DNA of 64,000 nucleotides from Oscillatoriophycideae cyanobacterium NC_groundwater_1537_Pr4_S-0.65um_50_18 (GTDB taxonomy: Bacteria > Cyanobacteriota > Cyanobacteriia > Elainellales > Elainellaceae). Below, piece by piece: positions 12,460 to 22,438 of this stretch. The notes under the pieces are model-generated. The model had not been told where the DNA came from and ran no database searches. It worked only from the letters and a program-made list of their open reading frames with translations. Position numbers and translations under genes: made by a program. Location of the stretch: NCBI GenBank assembly GCA_016208305.1, contig JACQYI010000036.1:140481-204480 (forward strand). The letters run 5' to 3'. How positions within the stretch are numbered: the first letter of the stretch is position 1; every line of letters begins with the position of its first letter.

Positions 12460-14949
12460 TCATCTAGCCGTTCCTTCTGCCCCTGTTTCGGCTGGAGTAT
12501 TACCTGACTCGATCGATAAAGTAGAGGGTTTTCCATCAGCATTGCTATAGTATCCCCATTTCCAGTTTTGAATCTCAGGCATGTCTTCACCGTATGTCGT
12601 GATGTATTGTTTGTGCTCGATCAGCTTGTTGCGAATAATTTGTTTGACGTAGGCACCCTGGTCTTTAAAGGTGGGAAGGCGATCGATCGCATCATTGGCT
12701 AAGTGAAACCGATCTAAATCATTCACGACTGTCATGTCAAACGGAGTCGTCGTCGTTCCCTCTTCTTTGTATCCCCGCACATGCAAATTACCGTGGTTTT
12801 TTCGACGATAGGTGAGTCGATGAATTAACCAGGGATAGCCGTGAAACGCAAAAATGATAGGTTTGTCGATCGTAAAAATTGAATCAAAGTCGCGATCGGA
12901 TAGACCATGTGGATGTTCGCTCTGGGGCTGAAGGGTCATCAGGTCAACCACATTGACTACTCGAATCTTCATGTCTGGAAGATGACAGCGGAGGAAATCC
13001 ACGGCTGCTAGAGCTTCCAAGGTGGGCACATCACCCGCACAGGCCATGACAACATCGGGTTCGCTCTGGCTGCTACTGCCTGCTGAATTGCTGCTGTCAT
13101 TGCTCGCCCATTCCCAAATTCCTAGACCTGTTGTGCAGTGTTTCACCGCATCATCCATATTTAGCCACTGCAATTCCGGCTGTTTACCTGCCACGATCAC
13201 ATTTACATACTGGCGACTGCGTAGACAGTGATCTGCAACCGAAAGCAGCGTATTGGCATCGGGGGGTAGATAGACACGAACAACCTTAGCTTTTTTGTTG
13301 GTTACGACATCTAGAAAACCCGGATCTTGATGGCTAAATCCATTGTGATCCTGTCGCCACACATGGGAAGTCAGCAGATAGTTGAGAGAAGCGATCGATC
13401 TGCGCCAGGGAATGTCAATGCAGCTTTCTAACCACTTTGCATGTTGGTTAAACATGGAATCAACAATGTGAATAAAGGCTTCATAGCAAGAAAAGAAACC
13501 GTGACGACCTGTGAGCAGATAGCCCTCTAGCCAACCTTGACACATATGTTCACTCAGCACTTCCATAACGCGACCGTCGAATGCAATGTGGTCGTCGGTT
13601 GGCAAGATTTCGGCTGTAGAAACGCGATTGGTGACTTCTAAAACTGCATTGAGGCGATTTGAATTGTTCTCATCAGGACTCATAACACGGAAGTTGCGGC
13701 TATCTAGATTGAGCTGCATCACATCTCGCAGAAACTGCCCTAGAATGCGGGTAGATTCTGCCATCTCGGTTCCAGGTGCAGAAACATCAAAACCGTAGCT
13801 CCGAAAATCTGGTAGTTTCAAATCTTTGAGCAACAAGCCCCCATTCGCATGAGGATTGGCACCCATCCGCCGATCGCCTTTGGGCGCAAGCTCTGCCAGT
13901 TCTGGTATCAGCCTGCCGCTTTCATCAAACAGGGTGTCGGGCTGATAACTTTTCATCCAGTTTTCTAACAGCTTCACATGCTCTGGATTGCTTGCCATTT
14001 CTGCAAGGGGCACCTGATGCGATCGCCAAGAGTCTTCTGTTGGCTTGCCATCAACTTCTTTTGGCCCTGTCCAGCCTTTGGGCGATCGCAGAATAATCAT
14101 CGGAAAGGGCTGACGATCATGATTGCCAGGAGTGCGGGCTTGCTGCTGAATGGATTGAATCTCGGCAATCACGGTGTCCAAGGTTTTTGCCATCAGCGCA
14201 TGCATCGTTTCTGGATCAGACCCTTCAACAAAATAGGGCTTGTACCCGTAACCTACGAATAGGCTCTCTAGCTCATGCTGAGGCAAACGAGCCAGGACGG
14301 TCGGGTTAGCGATTTTGTAGCCATTCAGGTGCAAAATGGGCAACACGGCTCCATCCCGTGCGGAATTCAGAAACTTATTAGAATGCCAGCTAGTGGCTAA
14401 AGGCCCTGTCTCAGCTTCTCCATCACCAACGACGCAGGCAACAATCAGGTCAGGATTATCAAAAGCTGCCCCATAGGCATGAACCAGCGCATAGCCCAAT
14501 TCTCCTCCTTCGTGAATTGAACCTGGAGTCTCAGGAGCGGCATGGCTTGGAATGCCTCCTGGGAAAGAGAACTGTCTGAATAATTGCGCTATTCCTTCTG
14601 CATCCTGAGAAATACTGGGATAAAGTTCGCTGTAGGTACCCTCTAAATAGGTATTGGCAACCATTCCAGGCCCACCATGTCCAGGGCCAGCAATGTAAAT
14701 CATGTTCAAGTCTTGCGCTTTGATCACGCGGTTGAGATGAGCATAGATAAAGTTTAGACCAGGTGTCGTGCCCCAATGCCCCAACAGCCTAGGCTTGATA
14801 TGCGCCAAGCTCAGAGGCTCTCGCAAGAGTGGATTTGCCAGTAGATAAATTTGCCCCACTGAAAGATAGTTTGCGGCACACCAGTAGGCATGGAGCTTAC
14901 GCAGGTCGTCAGTAGATACATCCCGCTGGGCAGAAACTGTAGTAGTCAT
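12460..14949 (-). CDS. xfp: Xylulose-5-phosphate / fructose-6-phosphate phosphoketolase
   Basis: 829 residues, normal length for this thiamine-diphosphate enzyme. It cleaves xylulose-5-P (or fructose-6-P) with phosphate into acetyl phosphate plus glyceraldehyde-3-P (or erythrose-4-P). Landmarks: [20 protein letters not shown] near residue 80, the ThDP/Mg motif [11 protein letters not shown] near 170, and [19 protein letters not shown] in the second domain. AGGAGAA lies eight bases before the ATG. Immediately upstream is a decayed acetate kinase gene, the usual partner that turns acetyl phosphate into acetate and ATP, so the acetyl-P made here must now be used otherwise (phosphotransacetylase, or another acetate kinase elsewhere). 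Probably part of the operon that starts at the ThrRS-like gene. Confidence 0.95.
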
Positions 14950-14968
14950 CAGCTTTTCTCCTGAGAAC

Positions 14969-15359
14969 TCAATTTTTCAGACACTGAATCGATTCTTGAG
15001 CTATCATCAATCCTTCCTCAACGGGAATCACATAAACATGCAAATGAGAGTCTTCGGTGGTAATACATCCTTCTCGATCGATTATCTTTTGATTGCGATC
15101 GCCATCCAGCTTTAAACCGCACCACTCAAATCCTGCGAACTTTCCCTCTGATGACTTCGGCATCCATTGGGGCAGCGACAGTGCAGCGATCGCCTCCCTG
15201 CGCCCTCGATGCCCGATTAGTTGCTGGGCAAAGAGCCAGTCCTAGGCTCGGTAGATAGCTGCTTCGTGATCTTGAACCTGATAAGCAGCATTTCGTTCAA
15301 TTTGAACAACCTCAAACTTGAGTGAAGCACTGCCCGCATTAGAAACCAGAACATTACAT
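14969..15359 (-). pseudogene. ackA: Acetate kinase remnant (N- and C-terminal ends only)
   Basis: Read on the minus strand from 15358, the frame gives NVLVSNAGSASLKFEVVQIE, the acetate kinase start. It breaks at TAG (15246-15244) and resumes, in frame, to end with CGLKLDGDRNQKI and YVIPVEEGLMIAQESIQCL, the acetate kinase C-terminus. Only about 130 codons remain of about 400; the catalytic centre and ATP-binding middle are gone. At the start, ATG (15359-15357) is followed directly by TAA, consistent with a single inserted T after the original ATG. The last 64 codons stay open from an internal ATG (15163), but they encode no functional kinase. Its position between DUF6582 and xfp matches the known xfp-ackA pairing. 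Confidence 0.8.
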
Positions 15360-15363
15360 GACT

Positions 15364-15753
15364 TTAGTGAGCTGGATTTTGAGCATGAGGCTTGCGGCTT
15401 AACTCATGCCAGCTTTTCTCTTCGACATGAACTTCGTAATACTCTGCTGCCTTCTGGATATTGGTAAAAGCGAGATCACGCTCTTGATCAGAAACATCCT
15501 GCACTTGATCAAATCGTGCCAAAGCATTCTTGACATGGGAAGCATCAGTCAAGGGTTCTTTTCGCTGCTTCGGAAAAGCAAACGCTGTATCCGGCAGATG
15601 CTTTCGATCTTTCGTAGAGAGTTCTCCCTGCTGGGTGTGAGGCTGCCAAGTTGATTGCATCTTCACTTGCATCTCCTGATAGTAGATAGTAAGGATTTTT
15701 AGCGTTGCTGATCTTTCGAGATATTGAAGCCGCTTAAGAAACTCCTCCATCAT
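15364..15753 (-). CDS. DUF6582 family protein
   Basis: Up to 129 residues. The C-terminal 80 residues carry the conserved block: DRKHLPDTAFAFPKQRKEPL, then DASHVKNALARFDQV, a DQERDLAFTNI helix and EEKSWHELSRK. It looks like a small helical, possibly DNA- or phage-head-associated, module, but its function is unknown. The start is uncertain: the ATG at 15660 (98 residues) has AGGAG 12 nt upstream, while the longer form adds 31 residues unlike the family. It lies 34 nt after the ThrRS-like gene and 4 nt before the acetate kinase remnant, so it is probably in the same transcript. Confidence 0.72.
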   Translation of the reverse strand: MMEEFLKRLQYLERSATLKILTIYYQEMQVKMQSTWQPHTQQGELSTKDRKHLPDTAFAFPKQRKEPLTDASHVKNALARFDQVQDVSDQERDLAFTNIQKAAEYYEVHVEEKSWHELSRKPHAQNPAH

Positions 15754-15787
15754 GCTTAATTTTCGGGGAATGCAACTCTACCGATCG

Positions 15788-17020
15788 TTAGAACTTTAGA
15801 TTCGATTGCAGCAATCTTTGCTCAAGTTGAGCAAGGCTCATTTCCTGCTGCTCTGAAGCCCCCAAACATCGTAGATTTAGCGTTTGGCTATTGGCTTCCT
15901 GCTCACCCACAATTGCAATCAAGGGAATTCTACGCTTGGAGAGCGCCCGGATTTTTTTGCTGATCGTGCCATCCTCGTTGTAAAGCTCTGCCCGAATCTG
16001 CAATTGCCGGAGTCGAGAGAAAATTGCTTTAGCCCAAATAGAGGCTTTATCAGAAATAGAGGCGATCGCAATTTGTGTAGGAGCCACCCAAACGGGGAGA
16101 ATGCCGCGATGGTGCTCTAATAAGATACCAATCCAGCGCTCTAGCGATCCTAAAACGGCTTGGTGCAGCATAACCGGGCGCTCCAAGTCTCCCTGCTCAT
16201 TGACAAAGGCTAGATCAAAGACTTGCGGAAGATTAAAATCAATCTGAAACGTACCACATTGCCACGATCGCCCCCATTGATCTTGCAAACTAATTTCAAG
16301 TTTGGGGCCATAAAAGGCTCCTTCATTCGGTGCCAACTGGTAACTGTGACCCAAAGATTGAACTGCCGCAATCAACAATGACTCAGCCCGATCCCACAGG
16401 TGATCAGACCCAAGCCGTTGCTGCGGTCTGAGGGAAATTTGGAGAGAAAACTGCTCATAGCCAAAGGCTTTGTAAATCTGCTGCACCATCTTGAGGAAGT
16501 TGCCAATTTCACCCTGCACATCCGACTCGCGACAAAAGATATGGGCATCATCCTGGACAAACTGTCGCAGTCGCATACAGCCCGATAACGTGCCAGAAAG
16601 CTCATTGCGATGGCAAATGCCAAACTCCATCAATCGCATCGGATGCTCTCGATAGCTGCGCTTGTGGGATTGATAAATGGCAATATGAGCAGGGCAAGAC
16701 ATTGGCTTCAGCGCATAGTCAGGGCGGATCACTGCCGATTCATCATCTGCCGCAGCATTGTCTGCCTTAGCTACACTGCCAACCACAAACATCCCCTGAC
16801 GAAACTTTTCCCAATGCCCTGAGCGCTCCCACAGCGATCGACTGAGAGCAATGGGCGATCGCACTTCTTCAAAGTCATGGGCTTGATAAACATGCCGCAT
16901 CAAATTCTCAACGCTGTGAAACAGGCGTAATCCCTGAGGGTGCCAAAACACCATTCCTGGACTATGTTCCTCAAAATGGAACAAATCCATATCCCTCGCA
17001 AATTCACGATGATCTGCCAT
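15788..17020 (-). CDS. thrS: Short threonyl-tRNA synthetase (catalytic and anticodon domains only)
   Basis: 410 residues against about 610-640 for a standard ThrRS. It starts directly at the class II catalytic core (DMDLFHFEEHSPGMVFWHPQ) and lacks the N-terminal TGS and Ser-editing domains. Zinc-site and active-site signatures are intact: LKPMSCPAHIAIYQ (Cys ligand), ICHRNELSGTLSG with FVQDDAHIF (motif 2), and RPVMLHQAVLGSLERWIGIL (motif 3). An anticodon-binding domain ends the protein (VWVAPTQIAIASIS). Full-length ATG is preceded by AGGAGA. Duplicated ThrRSs, one lacking editing, are known in cyanobacteria such as Anabaena; a housekeeping copy presumably lies elsewhere. Upstream are two Thr-rich small ORFs and an attenuator-like terminator. 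Confidence 0.88.
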   Translation of the reverse strand: MADHREFARDMDLFHFEEHSPGMVFWHPQGLRLFHSVENLMRHVYQAHDFEEVRSPIALSRSLWERSGHWEKFRQGMFVVGSVAKADNAAADDESAVIRPDYALKPMSCPAHIAIYQSHKRSYREHPMRLMEFGICHRNELSGTLSGCMRLRQFVQDDAHIFCRESDVQGEIGNFLKMVQQIYKAFGYEQFSLQISLRPQQRLGSDHLWDRAESLLIAAVQSLGHSYQLAPNEGAFYGPKLEISLQDQWGRSWQCGTFQIDFNLPQVFDLAFVNEQGDLERPVMLHQAVLGSLERWIGILLEHHRGILPVWVAPTQIAIASISDKASIWAKAIFSRLRQLQIRAELYNEDGTISKKIRALSKRRIPLIAIVGEQEANSQTLNLRCLGASEQQEMSLAQLEQRLLQSNLKF

Positions 17021-17162
17021 TTGACTTCTCCTAATGTCTCAATAGTGGGTAATAAGAAATCTCTAAGTCAGCTTTTAAGAGTCGAATAAGTTGCCACATC
17101 AATCTATCGCCACGTCTCCTTTAGCGTGACAAATAGTGATATTCCAGCAGTCTCTTTAGGGA

Positions 17163-17243
17163 CTAGCGCACGAAGATAGCGGCGGTCATAGCAGTTGTAA
17201 TCGCAGGAGTAGTTTTCATGATCGATAACATAGTAAGCAGCAT
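17163..17243 (-). CDS. Thr-rich upstream ORF 2 (26 codons)
   Basis: ATG at 17243-17241, TAG at 17165-17163. Six of 26 residues are Thr; the core reads MKTTPAITTAMTAAIFVR from an internal in-frame ATG at 17219. AGGTG lies shortly before the first ATG. It sits between the attenuator-like terminator and the ThrRS-like gene, 142 nt before its start. I infer a second Thr-sensing or translation-coupling element, but unlike the first leader it has no T-run hairpin behind it, so this is less certain. Confidence 0.45.
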   Translation of the reverse strand: MLLTMLSIMKTTPAITTAMTAAIFVR

Positions 17244-17291
17244 GGCACCTAGCCCGAATCTTTCAGCCTGAATTTGACCTAAATTTGACCT

Positions 17292-17325
17292 AAAAAAGTG
17301 CCCCCCAGCGCTTGTCTGGAGGGCA
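17292..17325 (-). terminator. Attenuator terminator upstream of the ThrRS-like gene
   Basis: On the minus strand TGCCCTCCAG (17325-17316) pairs with CTGGGGGGCA (17308-17299) over ten positions, one of them G-U, around a 7-nt loop. The stem is followed by C and six T (17297-17292). It begins 34 nt after the stop of the Thr leader peptide and about 270 nt before the synthetase, so it would block the synthetase unless disrupted. CCCTCC of its first arm is complementary to GGAGGG at 17371-17366 inside the leader ORF, giving a mutually exclusive antiterminator. Confidence 0.8.
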
Positions 17326-17359
17326 ACTCAAGTTGTAAGACTGGTTTCAGCGCAACCCC

Positions 17360-17422
17360 TTACGACCCTCCGGGATGGATGGTAGTGGTGGTCGTGGTAG
17401 TGAGGGCGATCGCGACTTTCAT
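17360..17422 (-). CDS. Threonine leader peptide (seven consecutive Thr codons)
   Basis: A 20-residue ORF, MKVAIALTTTTTTTIHPGGS, with Thr codons ACT ACC ACG ACC ACC ACT ACC at 17401-17381. It resembles the design of enterobacterial thrL and of pheM before pheST. If charged tRNA-Thr is scarce, a ribosome stalled in the Thr run leaves GGA GGG (17371-17366) free to pair with CCCTCC of the downstream terminator arm and so prevents termination. If translation proceeds to the stop, the ribosome covers GGAGGG and the terminator forms. No clear Shine-Dalgarno is visible. Function is inferred from architecture. Confidence 0.75.
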   Translation of the reverse strand: MKVAIALTTTTTTTIHPGGS

Positions 17423-17451
17423 AAACAGAAATATTGTGTTTTGATATATCT

Positions 17452-17481
17452 TCTTTAACTCAGTTTCTGAGGGATTGTCAA
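17452..17481 (-). promoter_or_regulatory. Candidate promoter for the Thr leader / ThrRS transcript
   Basis: On the minus strand TTGACA (17481-17476) is a perfect -35, followed after 18 nt by TAAAGA (17457-17452) as a moderate -10. A start near 17445 would leave a leader ORF beginning about 23 nt downstream. Confidence 0.5.
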
Positions 17482-17622
17482 GTATCCGAAAAGATAAACT
17501 AAAAGACTAATAGGTTTAAATAGCGCATTTAACTAACAAATTTAACAACAATAAGCTAGCCCAAAATATCCTTTATTAATCTCTAATTCAAGTAAATTAG
17601 GCTGTAGGATTTCAGGGTTATG

Positions 17623-17754
17623 GTTGACTGACAGATCTTTTCTATAGGTTAGGCAGAACAACGTAAAACCCTAACAATAGCAGGATTTGTTGGGTGACGC
17701 TGACGCCAATCCAACCTAGGCAAGAATAAGGGTTTCAAGAGTTTTGTCAGTCAA
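17623..17754. repeat. 132-bp segment with 10-bp terminal inverted repeats
   Basis: TTGACTGACA at 17623-17632 and TGTCAGTCAA at 17745-17754 are exact inverted repeats. The left end continues as a 20-bp exact inverted match to 7305-7324, and the right end TGTCAGTCAATCAGG recurs at 7315-7329. Inside is the common cyanobacterial hairpin GTTGGGTGACGC ... GCCAATCCAAC. It looks like a small non-autonomous element; no target-site duplication is clear. Confidence 0.5.
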
Positions 17755-20287: not shown

Positions 20288-21274
20288 ATGGCAGCGCTGA
20301 AAAAATGTTTGTTATTTGCCATCTCTTTATGCTTCTGTTTAACGTTGTTGTCTAAAACCGCTTATGCGCTCATTTCTTTGGATGATCGATTTGTTCCAAG
20401 GGAAGCTTGTGAGGCAGTGTCGTCCATCAGACAGGGAATCAACCCAGGGAATATTCGACTGACCCCTCAACAGGCTTACCCAGTCATTGGAAAGAACCGA
20501 GAGAACGCTTCCCATTACTTACTGAGAATTGCAGAAGCTGAACCGCCAACGCGCTGGGTACCTGTGCAGTGTGGAGAACTTTTAGATTCTTCTGCTCCTG
20601 TAAATCCAGAGAACTTAGATTACTTACTGGCTCTAAGCTGGCAGCCCTCTTTTTGTGAAACGAAGCCCGATAAACCAGAGTGCCAGAGCCAAACAGCGCA
20701 GAGGTTTGATGCGACCCATCTGGTGTTACATGGCTTATGGCCTCAGCCAAAACAAAATATTTATTGCAATGTCAGTCCTGAACTGAAACGTCTTGATCAA
20801 GAAAATCGATGGTCAGAGCTGCCGCCCATAGACTTATCTGAAGAAACAAGCACTGCATTGGCTGATAAAATGCCGGGATTTGCTTCAAATCTGCATCTGC
20901 ATGAATGGTATAAGCATGGAACTTGCTATAGCGATTCACCAGAGGAATATTATCAAGAGTCGATCGCCCTGTTGGATCGAGTGAATAACTCCCCCATTCA
21001 AAATCTATTTGCTAGTAACATTGGCAATTTTCTATCCTCGACTGAAATTCGCGATCGGTTTGATCAAGCCTTCAATCCAGGAGCAGGAAGCAAAGTTCAA
21101 GTGCAGTGTAAAAGAGATATCAACGAAGATCGCAATAATATGGTGGTCGAGCTACAGATTAACCTTAAAGGCGATATTCAGAGCGATACATCAATGGCAG
21201 AACTCTTGGAAGCGGGTCAAACGGTTGCGGCTGGTTGCTCTCTAGGAGAAATCGATCCAGCAGGTTTTGATTAA
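20288..21274 (+). CDS. Secreted RNase T2 family ribonuclease
   Basis: 328 residues with a classical signal peptide (LKKCLLFAISLCFCLTLLSK, cleavage near TAYA). Both T2 catalytic segments are complete: CAS-1 as LVLHGLWP near residue 146 and CAS-2 as LHEWYKHGTC near 203, so both catalytic histidines and the Glu/Lys-His group are present. The enzyme should act in the periplasm or outside the cell on single-stranded RNA, for instance in nucleotide scavenging. Six to eight cysteines fit disulfides. It is followed after 42 nt by an EEP-fold nuclease gene on the same strand. T2 RNases are patchily distributed in cyanobacteria, so gain by transfer is possible but not shown. Confidence 0.9.
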   Translation: MAALKKCLLFAISLCFCLTLLSKTAYALISLDDRFVPREACEAVSSIRQGINPGNIRLTPQQAYPVIGKNRENASHYLLRIAEAEPPTRWVPVQCGELLDSSAPVNPENLDYLLALSWQPSFCETKPDKPECQSQTAQRFDATHLVLHGLWPQPKQNIYCNVSPELKRLDQENRWSELPPIDLSEETSTALADKMPGFASNLHLHEWYKHGTCYSDSPEEYYQESIALLDRVNNSPIQNLFASNIGNFLSSTEIRDRFDQAFNPGAGSKVQVQCKRDINEDRNNMVVELQINLKGDIQSDTSMAELLEAGQTVAAGCSLGEIDPAGFD

Positions 21275-21316: not shown

Positions 21317-22438
21317 ATGCGCATTGCTGCATTCAACGTTGAAAACTTGTTCTCCCGTGTCCGCGCGATGAATCTCGAAGATTGGGAAGCGGGAAAGCCC
21401 ATCCTCACCGAGTACAGCCGCCTGAATAATCTGCTGCTGGAACCTGAGTACGCCCCTGCCACCCAGGCCGAAATTCTTGAATCTCTCGATCGGTTAGGTT
21501 TGCTGAAGAGTGATACCTCTCAATATGCCATCTTGCGGCAGAATCATGGGGCACTTTTGAAAAGACCCCGAAACGCTTCACCCGAAGTTGTTGCCACAGG
21601 TCGCGGAGATTGGATTGGCTGGGTAGAACTCAAAACTGAGTCTGTCAATGAAATAGCCATGAAGATGACAGCGCGTGTGATTCAAGATGTTAATGCAGAT
21701 ATCCTGGCCGTGGTTGAAGCCGAGAATCGAATTGCTCTAGAACACTTCAATGATCAGCTTCTAAAGCCGATCGCGGCTGATTATAGAGAGACTATGCTGA
21801 TTGACGGCAATGATGAACGGGGAATTGACGTTGGTATCCTGACAAAGCCGGGATTCCAAATTGAGTCAATGGTGAGCCACATTAATGACATGCAGAAGGG
21901 AGACACGCAGAAGGATGAGCCTATCTTTAGCCGCGACTGCCCAGAGTTTACGATTCGGGTTGGTGAATTGCGTGTACTCGTCATGGTCAATCACTTCAAG
22001 AGTAAGGGGTTTGGCTCCCAGGCATCGTCGAATGCAAAACGCCAGTTGCAGGCGCAGCGAGTCAGAGAAATCTACGACCAACGCAGAAGTGAAGGGATAG
22101 AGTTAATCGTTATCACTGGAGATTTGAATGACACGCCAGCGAGCAAGCCTCTAGCCCCACTGCTTGCAGATGGCTCAGATCTTCGCGACATTAGCACGCA
22201 CTCCGCCTTCTTAAGCGATGGCCGACCAGGGACTTATGGCAATGGCACAGCGTCGCAAAAAATCGACTATTTACTTCTCTCTCCAGCACTGTATGCCCGC
22301 GTTAAAGGAGGAGGTGTTTTCCGGAAGGGCGTGTGGGGAGGGAAGAACGGCACTCTTTTCCCTCACTATGCCGAAATGACCCAAGCCATTCATGCCGCAT
22401 CGGATCACGCTGCGATTTGGGCAGACATCGAGCTATAG
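21317..22438 (+). CDS. Endonuclease/exonuclease/phosphatase (EEP) family protein
   Basis: 373 residues. EEP signatures occur in order: MRIAAFNVENLF (metal-site Asn), DILAVVEAENRIALEHFN (Glu), RGIDVGILTKPGF, VMVNHFKSKGFG (His), VITGDLNDTPASKPL (Asp/Asn), and KIDYLLLSPAL with SDHAAIWADIEL (catalytic Asp-His) at the end. All metal-binding positions are present. No signal peptide is visible, in contrast to the RNase T2 gene 42 nt upstream. It could be a nuclease acting on DNA or a phosphodiesterase. GGAG precedes the ATG. Probably co-transcribed with the RNase. Confidence 0.85.
   Translation: MRIAAFNVENLFSRVRAMNLEDWEAGKPILTEYSRLNNLLLEPEYAPATQAEILESLDRLGLLKSDTSQYAILRQNHGALLKRPRNASPEVVATGRGDWIGWVELKTESVNEIAMKMTARVIQDVNADILAVVEAENRIALEHFNDQLLKPIAADYRETMLIDGNDERGIDVGILTKPGFQIESMVSHINDMQKGDTQKDEPIFSRDCPEFTIRVGELRVLVMVNHFKSKGFGSQASSNAKRQLQAQRVREIYDQRRSEGIELIVITGDLNDTPASKPLAPLLADGSDLRDISTHSAFLSDGRPGTYGNGTASQKIDYLLLSPALYARVKGGGVFRKGVWGGKNGTLFPHYAEMTQAIHAASDHAAIWADIEL

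Follow-up and report, generated by a model that had tools for sequence, protein, structure and literature searches.

In enterobacteria, leader-peptide attenuators such as thrL and pheM, the latter controlling pheST, combine a short open reading frame (ORF) rich in cognate codons with an antiterminator arm near the end of that ORF and a terminator with a T run, all upstream of the cognate gene. The E. coli thr leader contains eight ACC codons, and under the selective charging theory the codon preferred in an attenuator leader is the one whose tRNA discharges first, the other isoacceptors staying charged, as is reported to have been verified for the Thr isoacceptors (PMC1183508). Bacillus subtilis thrZ encodes a second threonyl-tRNA synthetase (ThrRS) that is normally silent, with Thr starvation or a low ThrS level as inducers (PMC3315439), and in bacilli 2 or 3 adjacent T-boxes lie upstream of thrZ (PMC2494555). 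The Salmonella mgtCBR leader holds two ORFs, mgtM and mgtP, one of them rich in codons for a single amino acid; it responds to two signals, ATP and proline, and has been termed a singular example (PMC3641672). A second cyanobacterial ThrRS, T2 of Anabaena PCC 7120, is encoded by thrS2, whose mutant loses Thr-tRNA charging under zinc limitation, with a five-fold drop at low zinc; the word 'leader' is absent from the main text of that paper (PMC4787780). The locus described here bears on RNA-level sensing of tRNA starvation in cyanobacteria, a field in which passages of a 2016 leader-gene survey speak of no reliable data on attenuation (PMC4833913) and the part of another survey that counts T-boxes gives 0 of 13 cyanobacterial genomes (PMC2494555). 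No prior report of such a cyanobacterial thrS attenuator was found in the open-licence literature.

The window, by which we mean the whole 64-kb stretch of cyanobacterial DNA that was analysed, carries a short thrS gene preceded by the features collected in Table 1. A first-pass annotation had placed on the thrS strand a TTGACA box, a 20-codon ORF with seven Thr codons, a hairpin and a T6 run, all of whose coordinates proved correct, and had pointed out the complementarity of GGAGGG at the leader end to CCCTCC in the first terminator arm, which we confirm. Seven ACN codons stand in a row at just this one place in the window, and 100 dinucleotide shuffles contain no such run. In 28 of 32 loci a TTGACA lies ahead of the leader, its first base 53-98 nt from the leader start, and similarity among loci begins near it: mean identity of 13 relatives to the window is 0.10-0.38 upstream of 17500, rises to 0.56-0.80 across 17480-17301, falls to 0-0.44 across 17280-17121 and returns to 0.53-0.68 across 17120-17021. 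A simple scan of 14900-17700 returned no sigma-70-type promoter on the minus strand, and no Shine-Dalgarno sequence is evident before the leader. The hairpin with its T6 run sits ~270 nt before thrS and is the sole terminator-like site in the scan of 14900-17700; since shuffles average 2.8 such sites, the scan alone is no evidence. The combination of Thr leader, GGAGGG and complementary hairpin arm is real and beyond chance.

Table 1. Features of the thrS leader region and the short thrS gene in the window
Feature	Position	Strand	Basis
-35-like TTGACA of presumed leader promoter	17476..17481	-	Sequence; TTGACA also in relatives
Unit 1 leader ORF, 20 codons, MKVAIALTTTTTTTIHPGGS + stop	17360..17422	-	Counterpart in 31/31 relatives
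Seven Thr codons in a row, ACT ACC ACG ACC ACC ACT ACC	17381..17401	-	
Region 1, ACGACC; could pair with GGTCGT (17367-17362) as protector hairpin	17390..17395	-	Prediction
Region 2, GGAGGG, antiterminator arm in last leader codons, before stop	17366..17371	-	
Unit 1 terminator hairpin, 10 bp	17299..17325	-	Predicted
Region 3, CCCTCC, 5' arm of unit 1 terminator hairpin	17318..17323	-	Complementary to GGAGGG
T6 run of terminator 1	17292..17297	-	
Remnant of unit 2 leader, MLLTMLSIMKTTPAITTAMTAAIFVR; frame end differs from relatives	17163..17243	-	
Decayed unit 2 antiterminator/terminator; both terminator arms altered	17055..17122	-	
Short thrS, 410 aa, 5 Thr; ThrRS core and anticodon-binding domain	15788..17020	-	

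Relatives were drawn from several searches. A scan of genome contigs yielded nine cyanobacterial orthologues (L007-L015; 78-85% identity) among the best 80 of 139 relatives, the remaining 71 of those 80 being ThrRSs without a cyanobacterial title at 39-43% identity. Genome searches added L090, L092, L093 and L096; 18 of the 217 genomes in the family of genome G392 contributed L127-L143, one being L012 again; and a plasmid search added L124 and L125, which lie on two conjugative plasmids of Acaryochloris marina MBIC10699. The short thrS occurs in 10 of 388 genomes of the class, 4 of 36 of the window's own family and 6 of 63 of a further family, f13 (overlapping sets). With duplicates removed (L002, L087-L089, L091, L094, L095, L097, L107, L110-L120 and L126), 32 loci including the window have a readable upstream region; L132, where the contig ends 73 nt upstream, is excluded from all upstream counts. 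Thr-rich leader, GGAGGG-type segment and terminator-like hairpin are kept in 31 of 31 readable relatives, a conservation that supports the earlier reading of the region as Thr attenuation of thrS. The same annotation had allowed for an extension of control to DUF6582 and xfp, which the relatives do not support: neither was found among the first three or fewer ORFs listed behind thrS in the 31 relatives (at most three of at least 90 aa per locus, with ~1.5 kb at many loci and none at L135).

Covariance models of the region (R1 and R2) gave strong matches solely at the short thrS among the 388 class genomes: R1 matched in 33 of 388 genomes at E<=0.01, the ten thrS loci strongly (E<=8.7e-13) and the others at E>=1.5e-5, with scans of more than 40 genomes run under stricter filters that lose weak matches. 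A weak R2 match fell in one genome, G162. A wider regulon was not apparent at 16 weak R1 loci (L154-L169), none of which has an ORF with four Thr in a row at the match, a test blind to leaders with shorter Thr runs and, for L154, viewed off its match; L158 and L167 have such ORFs away from theirs. At the main ThrRS, inspection by eye of 700 nt ahead of the stretch matched in L001 showed no Thr leader.

The sequence holds the parts by which a ribosome-mediated attenuator is recognized, namely a cognate-codon ORF, a predicted terminator and a predicted antiterminator overlapping the leader end. We consider it very probable that the element, present at all 32 loci, is a ribosome-mediated transcription attenuator through which thrS would be transcribed only when Thr-charged tRNA is scarce. 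With ample Thr-tRNA, the ribosome would reach the leader stop and cover GGAGGG, leaving CCCTCC to pair with the GGGGGG 3' arm and transcription to end. With scarce Thr-tRNA, the ribosome would probably stall in the Thr run and leave GGAGGG free; the free segment would then pair with CCCTCC once that is made, before the 3' arm, and RNA polymerase would likely continue.

All 32 loci have this unit (unit 1), and in 30 of 32 a second complete unit, again with Thr leader, GGAGGG-type segment, hairpin and T run, lies between unit 1 and thrS, giving 62 units in total, each with a Thr leader, a GGAGGG-type segment and a hairpin. Among the 31 relatives L137 alone lacks the intact pair, as does the window itself. 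Two serial units would put the decision to RNA polymerase twice, multiply termination and tighten the off state, a second step that the window would have lost. Its second unit (17055-17243) is decayed and, judged from its letters, dead: it scores 31.8 bits with R2 against 62-95 bits in nine relatives, its leader remnant reads GGAGACGTGG in place of GGAGGGACGTGA, and CTCTTAA/AGAGAT replaces CCCTCC/GGAGGG in the stem, for -2.0 versus -15.7 kcal/mol in an intact one. The ThrRS tree places both the window and L137 within groups of tandem loci, the window in a clade of 8 rows supported at 98/98, and we therefore read the drawn tree as indicating an ancestral pair lost twice. At another locus, L127, a long insertion with what by eye resemble inverted repeats (2710-2959) separates region 2 from the terminator of unit 2. 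At L090, in genome G014, an in-frame TAG shortens thrS to 325 codons, and both upstream attenuator units look intact.

The degenerate second unit raises the question of whether the window's whole system is decaying, with unit 1 acting as a leaky constitutive terminator and thrS no longer properly regulated. The best region 1 helix of the window, ACGACC:GGTCGT, could be read the same way, in that it is not of the CCTTAC:GTAAGG type seen in many relatives. However, leader, GGAGGG, stem and T run of unit 1 are all intact and thrS is full length with its catalytic motifs, and we consider such decay unlikely.

For the attenuator units as a set, the constraint on the leader looks to be at the level of RNA and not of peptide, because GGA-GGG is almost never swapped for synonymous codons while the Thr codons vary. 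The exact hexamer GGAGGG is present in 56 of 62 units. Leaders end in Gly-Gly in 56 of 62, with GGA as the first codon in 55 and GGG in one, and with GGG as the second in 56 of 56; from the Gly codon frequencies of these thrS genes, GGA-GGG would be expected at a product of 0.048 (~5%). Gly is replaced by Arg in three units, always as AGA, which retains GAGGG. At L141 the unit 1 stop comes before the segment and GGAGGG is still present, and in unit 1 of L129, L130 and L142 one base of the segment is changed. Thr accounts for 465 of 1239 leader codons, distributed as ACC 185, ACT 167, ACA 63 and ACG 50 over the 62 leaders; all 62 carry 4-14 Thr codons, leader length ranges widely from 11 to 54 codons (by our choice of start), and the longest Thr run is only 2 in 7 of 62.

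GGAGGG also resembles a strong ribosome-binding site, which together with a gap of 84-123 nt from the end of the unit 2 leader to thrS, seen in 28 of 30 tandem loci, would suit translational control or reinitiation, the leader coupling ribosomes to thrS rather than controlling termination. We regard this as improbable. In the window no ATG or GTG follows the GGAGGG of unit 1 closely, the only nearby start being a TTG with a two-codon frame; thrS carries its own AGGAGA adjoining its ATG; and each leader has its own hairpin and T run, with the complement of GGAGGG placed in a hairpin arm in both units. More doubtful still is a unit that has nothing to do with thrS control and yields either a functional Thr-rich micropeptide from its leader or a small RNA that ends at an ordinary terminator. 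Such a gene would present a conserved short ORF, a promoter-like box and a terminator-like hairpin, as these loci do, but peptide sequence, length and Thr number vary widely while the GGAGGG nucleotides hardly do, the leader amino acid matches the downstream gene, and strong matches stand only before thrS in the 388 genomes. A T-box tRNA-binding riboswitch in place of a translated leader would share its logic and target gene class with Bacillus thrS/thrZ and is the least credible reading by far, given a Thr-codon ORF in 62 units, the zero count of the T-box survey cited above (PMC2494555), the lack of any Rfam family at gathering score in the window, where a cut-off of E = 10 admits just Thr_leader (E = 8), and no match at the thrS leaders of five relatives searched. 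Membership of the Rfam family Thr_leader (RF00506) was considered separately and rejected, the match scoring 13.9 bits against a gathering score of 55 bits.

We then return to the transcription attenuator, the stems of which are predicted. A hairpin followed by a T run is predicted in 62 of 62 units, the T run being weak in unit 1 of L096. Terminator helix cells are paired at 89.6% in unit 1 (32 rows) and 94.4% in unit 2 (27 distinct rows; alignment A6 excludes L127 unit 2 with its long insertion), compared with 27-68% when the helix is slid by 1-3 columns. Cells with a two-sided change number 13 in unit 1 and 11 in unit 2, counts that no shuffle out of 500 attains. For pairs with a two-sided change, by contrast, 38 and 78 of 500 shuffles equal the observed number, and for further pair types 95 and 392 of 500 do; a single column pair, changed from G-C to A-U with the U supplied by the T run, accounts for 11 of the 13 cells in unit 1. 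Covariation thus appears to back the terminator modestly, because shuffles match the pair counts and the two-sided cells are partly A paired with the T run. Of the covariation that the first-pass annotation proposed as a check, the terminator shows modest two-sided change; the region 2/3 helix of the antiterminator is nearly invariant, so that covariation says nothing on it.

All 60 RNAs truncated after region 3 are predicted to form the region 2/3 helix, which is nearly built in there (L127 unit 2 and L140 unit 1 excluded); inner extensions and spacers give median z of -0.65 and -0.95 against shuffles, with p<=0.05 in 9 of 60, which suggests that the inner extensions are modestly better than shuffles and that the spacers are not clearly tuned. 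For all 61 units folded (L096 unit 2 excluded) a 1:2 protector hairpin is predicted, no stabler than in synonymous recodings (median z -0.28 and -0.1); among its helices, some such as CCTTAC:GTAAGG, TCACAACC:GGTTGTGA and CCTCAC:GTGAGG are shared by members of a clade. In the window RNA the terminator is part of the energy minimum whether one folds the whole leader or just the piece freed by a ribosome at the fourth Thr codon; RNAalifold picks the terminator and not the antiterminator, and when the fold of the window RNA starts 11 nt past the stop, the terminator is all that forms. Static folding by itself does not show a switch in these models; the energy minimum keeps the terminator, and therefore the switch would have to be kinetic, decided during transcription.

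The short ThrRS has a class II core and an anticodon-binding domain; it matches PF00587 and PF03129 in Pfam, NCBIfam thrS at 441.6 bits (cut-off 383.65) and a PDB ThrRS core at E 1.3e-106. The motifs that contain the zinc ligands Cys/His/His are present in 32, 31 and 32 of 32 proteins. Pfam found no N-terminal editing domain in the 410 aa, only core and anticodon domain. The window genome also has a full-length ThrRS, which makes the short thrS product a predicted second ThrRS; the first-pass annotation is right to that extent, and the 'backup' role that it names is putative. A full-length ThrRS accompanies the short one in 10 of 10 genomes at least 90% complete, and a search of the incomplete genome G389 showed the short ThrRS alone. 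The short ThrRS shares 35% identity with the main ThrRS and 38% with a third ThrRS that two of the genomes carry.

The coding of the enzyme differs from that of the leaders. Thr makes up 191 of 12597 codons (1.5%) in 31 short thrS genes, the cut-off L090 gene excluded, compared with 4.6% in the main ThrRS and 4.0% in its last 400 codons (ten genes, longest open frames). The 71 other ThrRS cores, mostly proteobacterial by title, have 2.3%-6.4% Thr with a median of 3.4%; individual short thrS genes go up to 2.45% (L096) and so overlap with the bottom of these values. The 32 window ORFs that reach 250 aa (thrS included, spurious frames possible) have 5.5% Thr with ACC+ACT at 460 of 838, and another window ORF is about equally Thr-poor at 1.5%. 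No residue of the short ThrRS is more depleted than Thr, which across 394 aligned columns stands at 0.37 of its level in the main and 0.36 of that in the third ThrRS.

The few Thr codons that the enzyme retains are mainly ACA (88) and ACG (71), together 159 of 191, with ACT 27 and ACC 5. The ACC+ACT share is 32 of 191 as against 91 of 160 in the main ThrRS cores (Fisher p 3e-15, the Fisher tests and codon counts ignoring shared ancestry) and 352 of 465 in the leaders. No avoidance of C/T-ending codons was found in short thrS for Ala, Gly, Pro or Val. The ACC and ACT codons are read mainly by tRNA-Thr GGT, and the window genome has one tRNA-Thr gene each with GGT, TGT and CGT among 49 tRNA matches. 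Being Thr-poor and avoiding ACC/ACT, the enzyme should therefore still be translatable in the inducing state. The leaders are built of the codons that the enzyme avoids, as would be expected of a rescue enzyme, and this opposite choice in sensor and enzyme fits the selective charging theory. Both this coding and the tandem second unit were missed by the first-pass annotation. Elsewhere in the window genome, nine tRNA genes lie within 1.5 kb on a 16-kb contig (L215:688-2188; G000:C35), with anticodons mostly duplicating others in the genome; the array possibly belongs to a phage or plasmid.

The short thrS is accessory, patchy and partly plasmid-borne, and its neighbour genes differ between loci. 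Each of the A. marina plasmids, pREC1 (L124) and pREC2 (L125), carries a short thrS with both attenuator units; cysS, cobW and folE lie within the 13 kb read around that of pREC1, and a Fur-family regulator gene lies near that of pREC2. In Leptolyngbya sp. Heron Island J (L010:2002-3924), cobW of the COG0523 type and GTP cyclohydrolase I are upstream of the short thrS. The gene company on the two plasmids looks like that of zinc limitation, at which that of L010 and pREC1 hints; no such hint was seen among the few neighbours scanned per locus at L007-L009 and L011-L015. Passages on proteobacterial Zur regulons describe CysRS and ThrRS paralogues that keep their zinc ligands (PMC2770081). A role in resistance to a ThrRS inhibitor is equally possible. 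We note that at L007:4224-4300 an Rfam group II intron match (48.6 bits, opposite strand) precedes the thrS leader by a few hundred nt, and that the window holds a ribonuclease T2 family gene at 20288-21274 followed by an endonuclease/exonuclease/phosphatase family gene at 21317-22438.

Taken further than the attenuator itself, the observations could, tentatively, describe a mobile, famine-proof circuit, which we judge possible and somewhat short of probable. Serial attenuators would keep a spare ThrRS off until tRNA-Thr(GGU) is uncharged; the enzyme, nearly free of Thr and of ACC/ACT, could then be made; and the whole would spread between cyanobacteria, also by conjugative plasmids, as an inducible rescue when the main ThrRS fails, for example through natural inhibitors or zinc starvation. 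The loci yield 62 candidate attenuator units with exact predictions and a serial pair for one amino acid, the opposite Thr-codon choice of sensor and enzyme offers a clean natural case for selective charging theory, and the element could serve as a Thr-starvation reporter in cyanobacteria.

By analogy with the known systems, the element probably works as a thrL-type attenuator and parallels Bacillus thrZ in logic. With thrL and pheM-pheST it shares the arrangement of leader, arm and terminator set out above; unlike them it is cyanobacterial, has thrS as its target, mostly comprises two serial units and lies outside Rfam Thr_leader. As with the T-boxes of thrZ, the gene behind it is a second ThrRS gene; the differences are that sensing is predicted to go through translation of a Thr-codon ORF in place of a tRNA-binding RNA, and that the enzyme is without an editing domain. 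The tandem loci recall mgtCBR in having two leader ORFs, with the difference that both units are Thr-coded and each has its own hairpin and T run. Anabaena T2 is likewise a second cyanobacterial ThrRS, but it keeps subdomains N1 and N2, is impaired in editing and stands under Zur control (PMC4787780).
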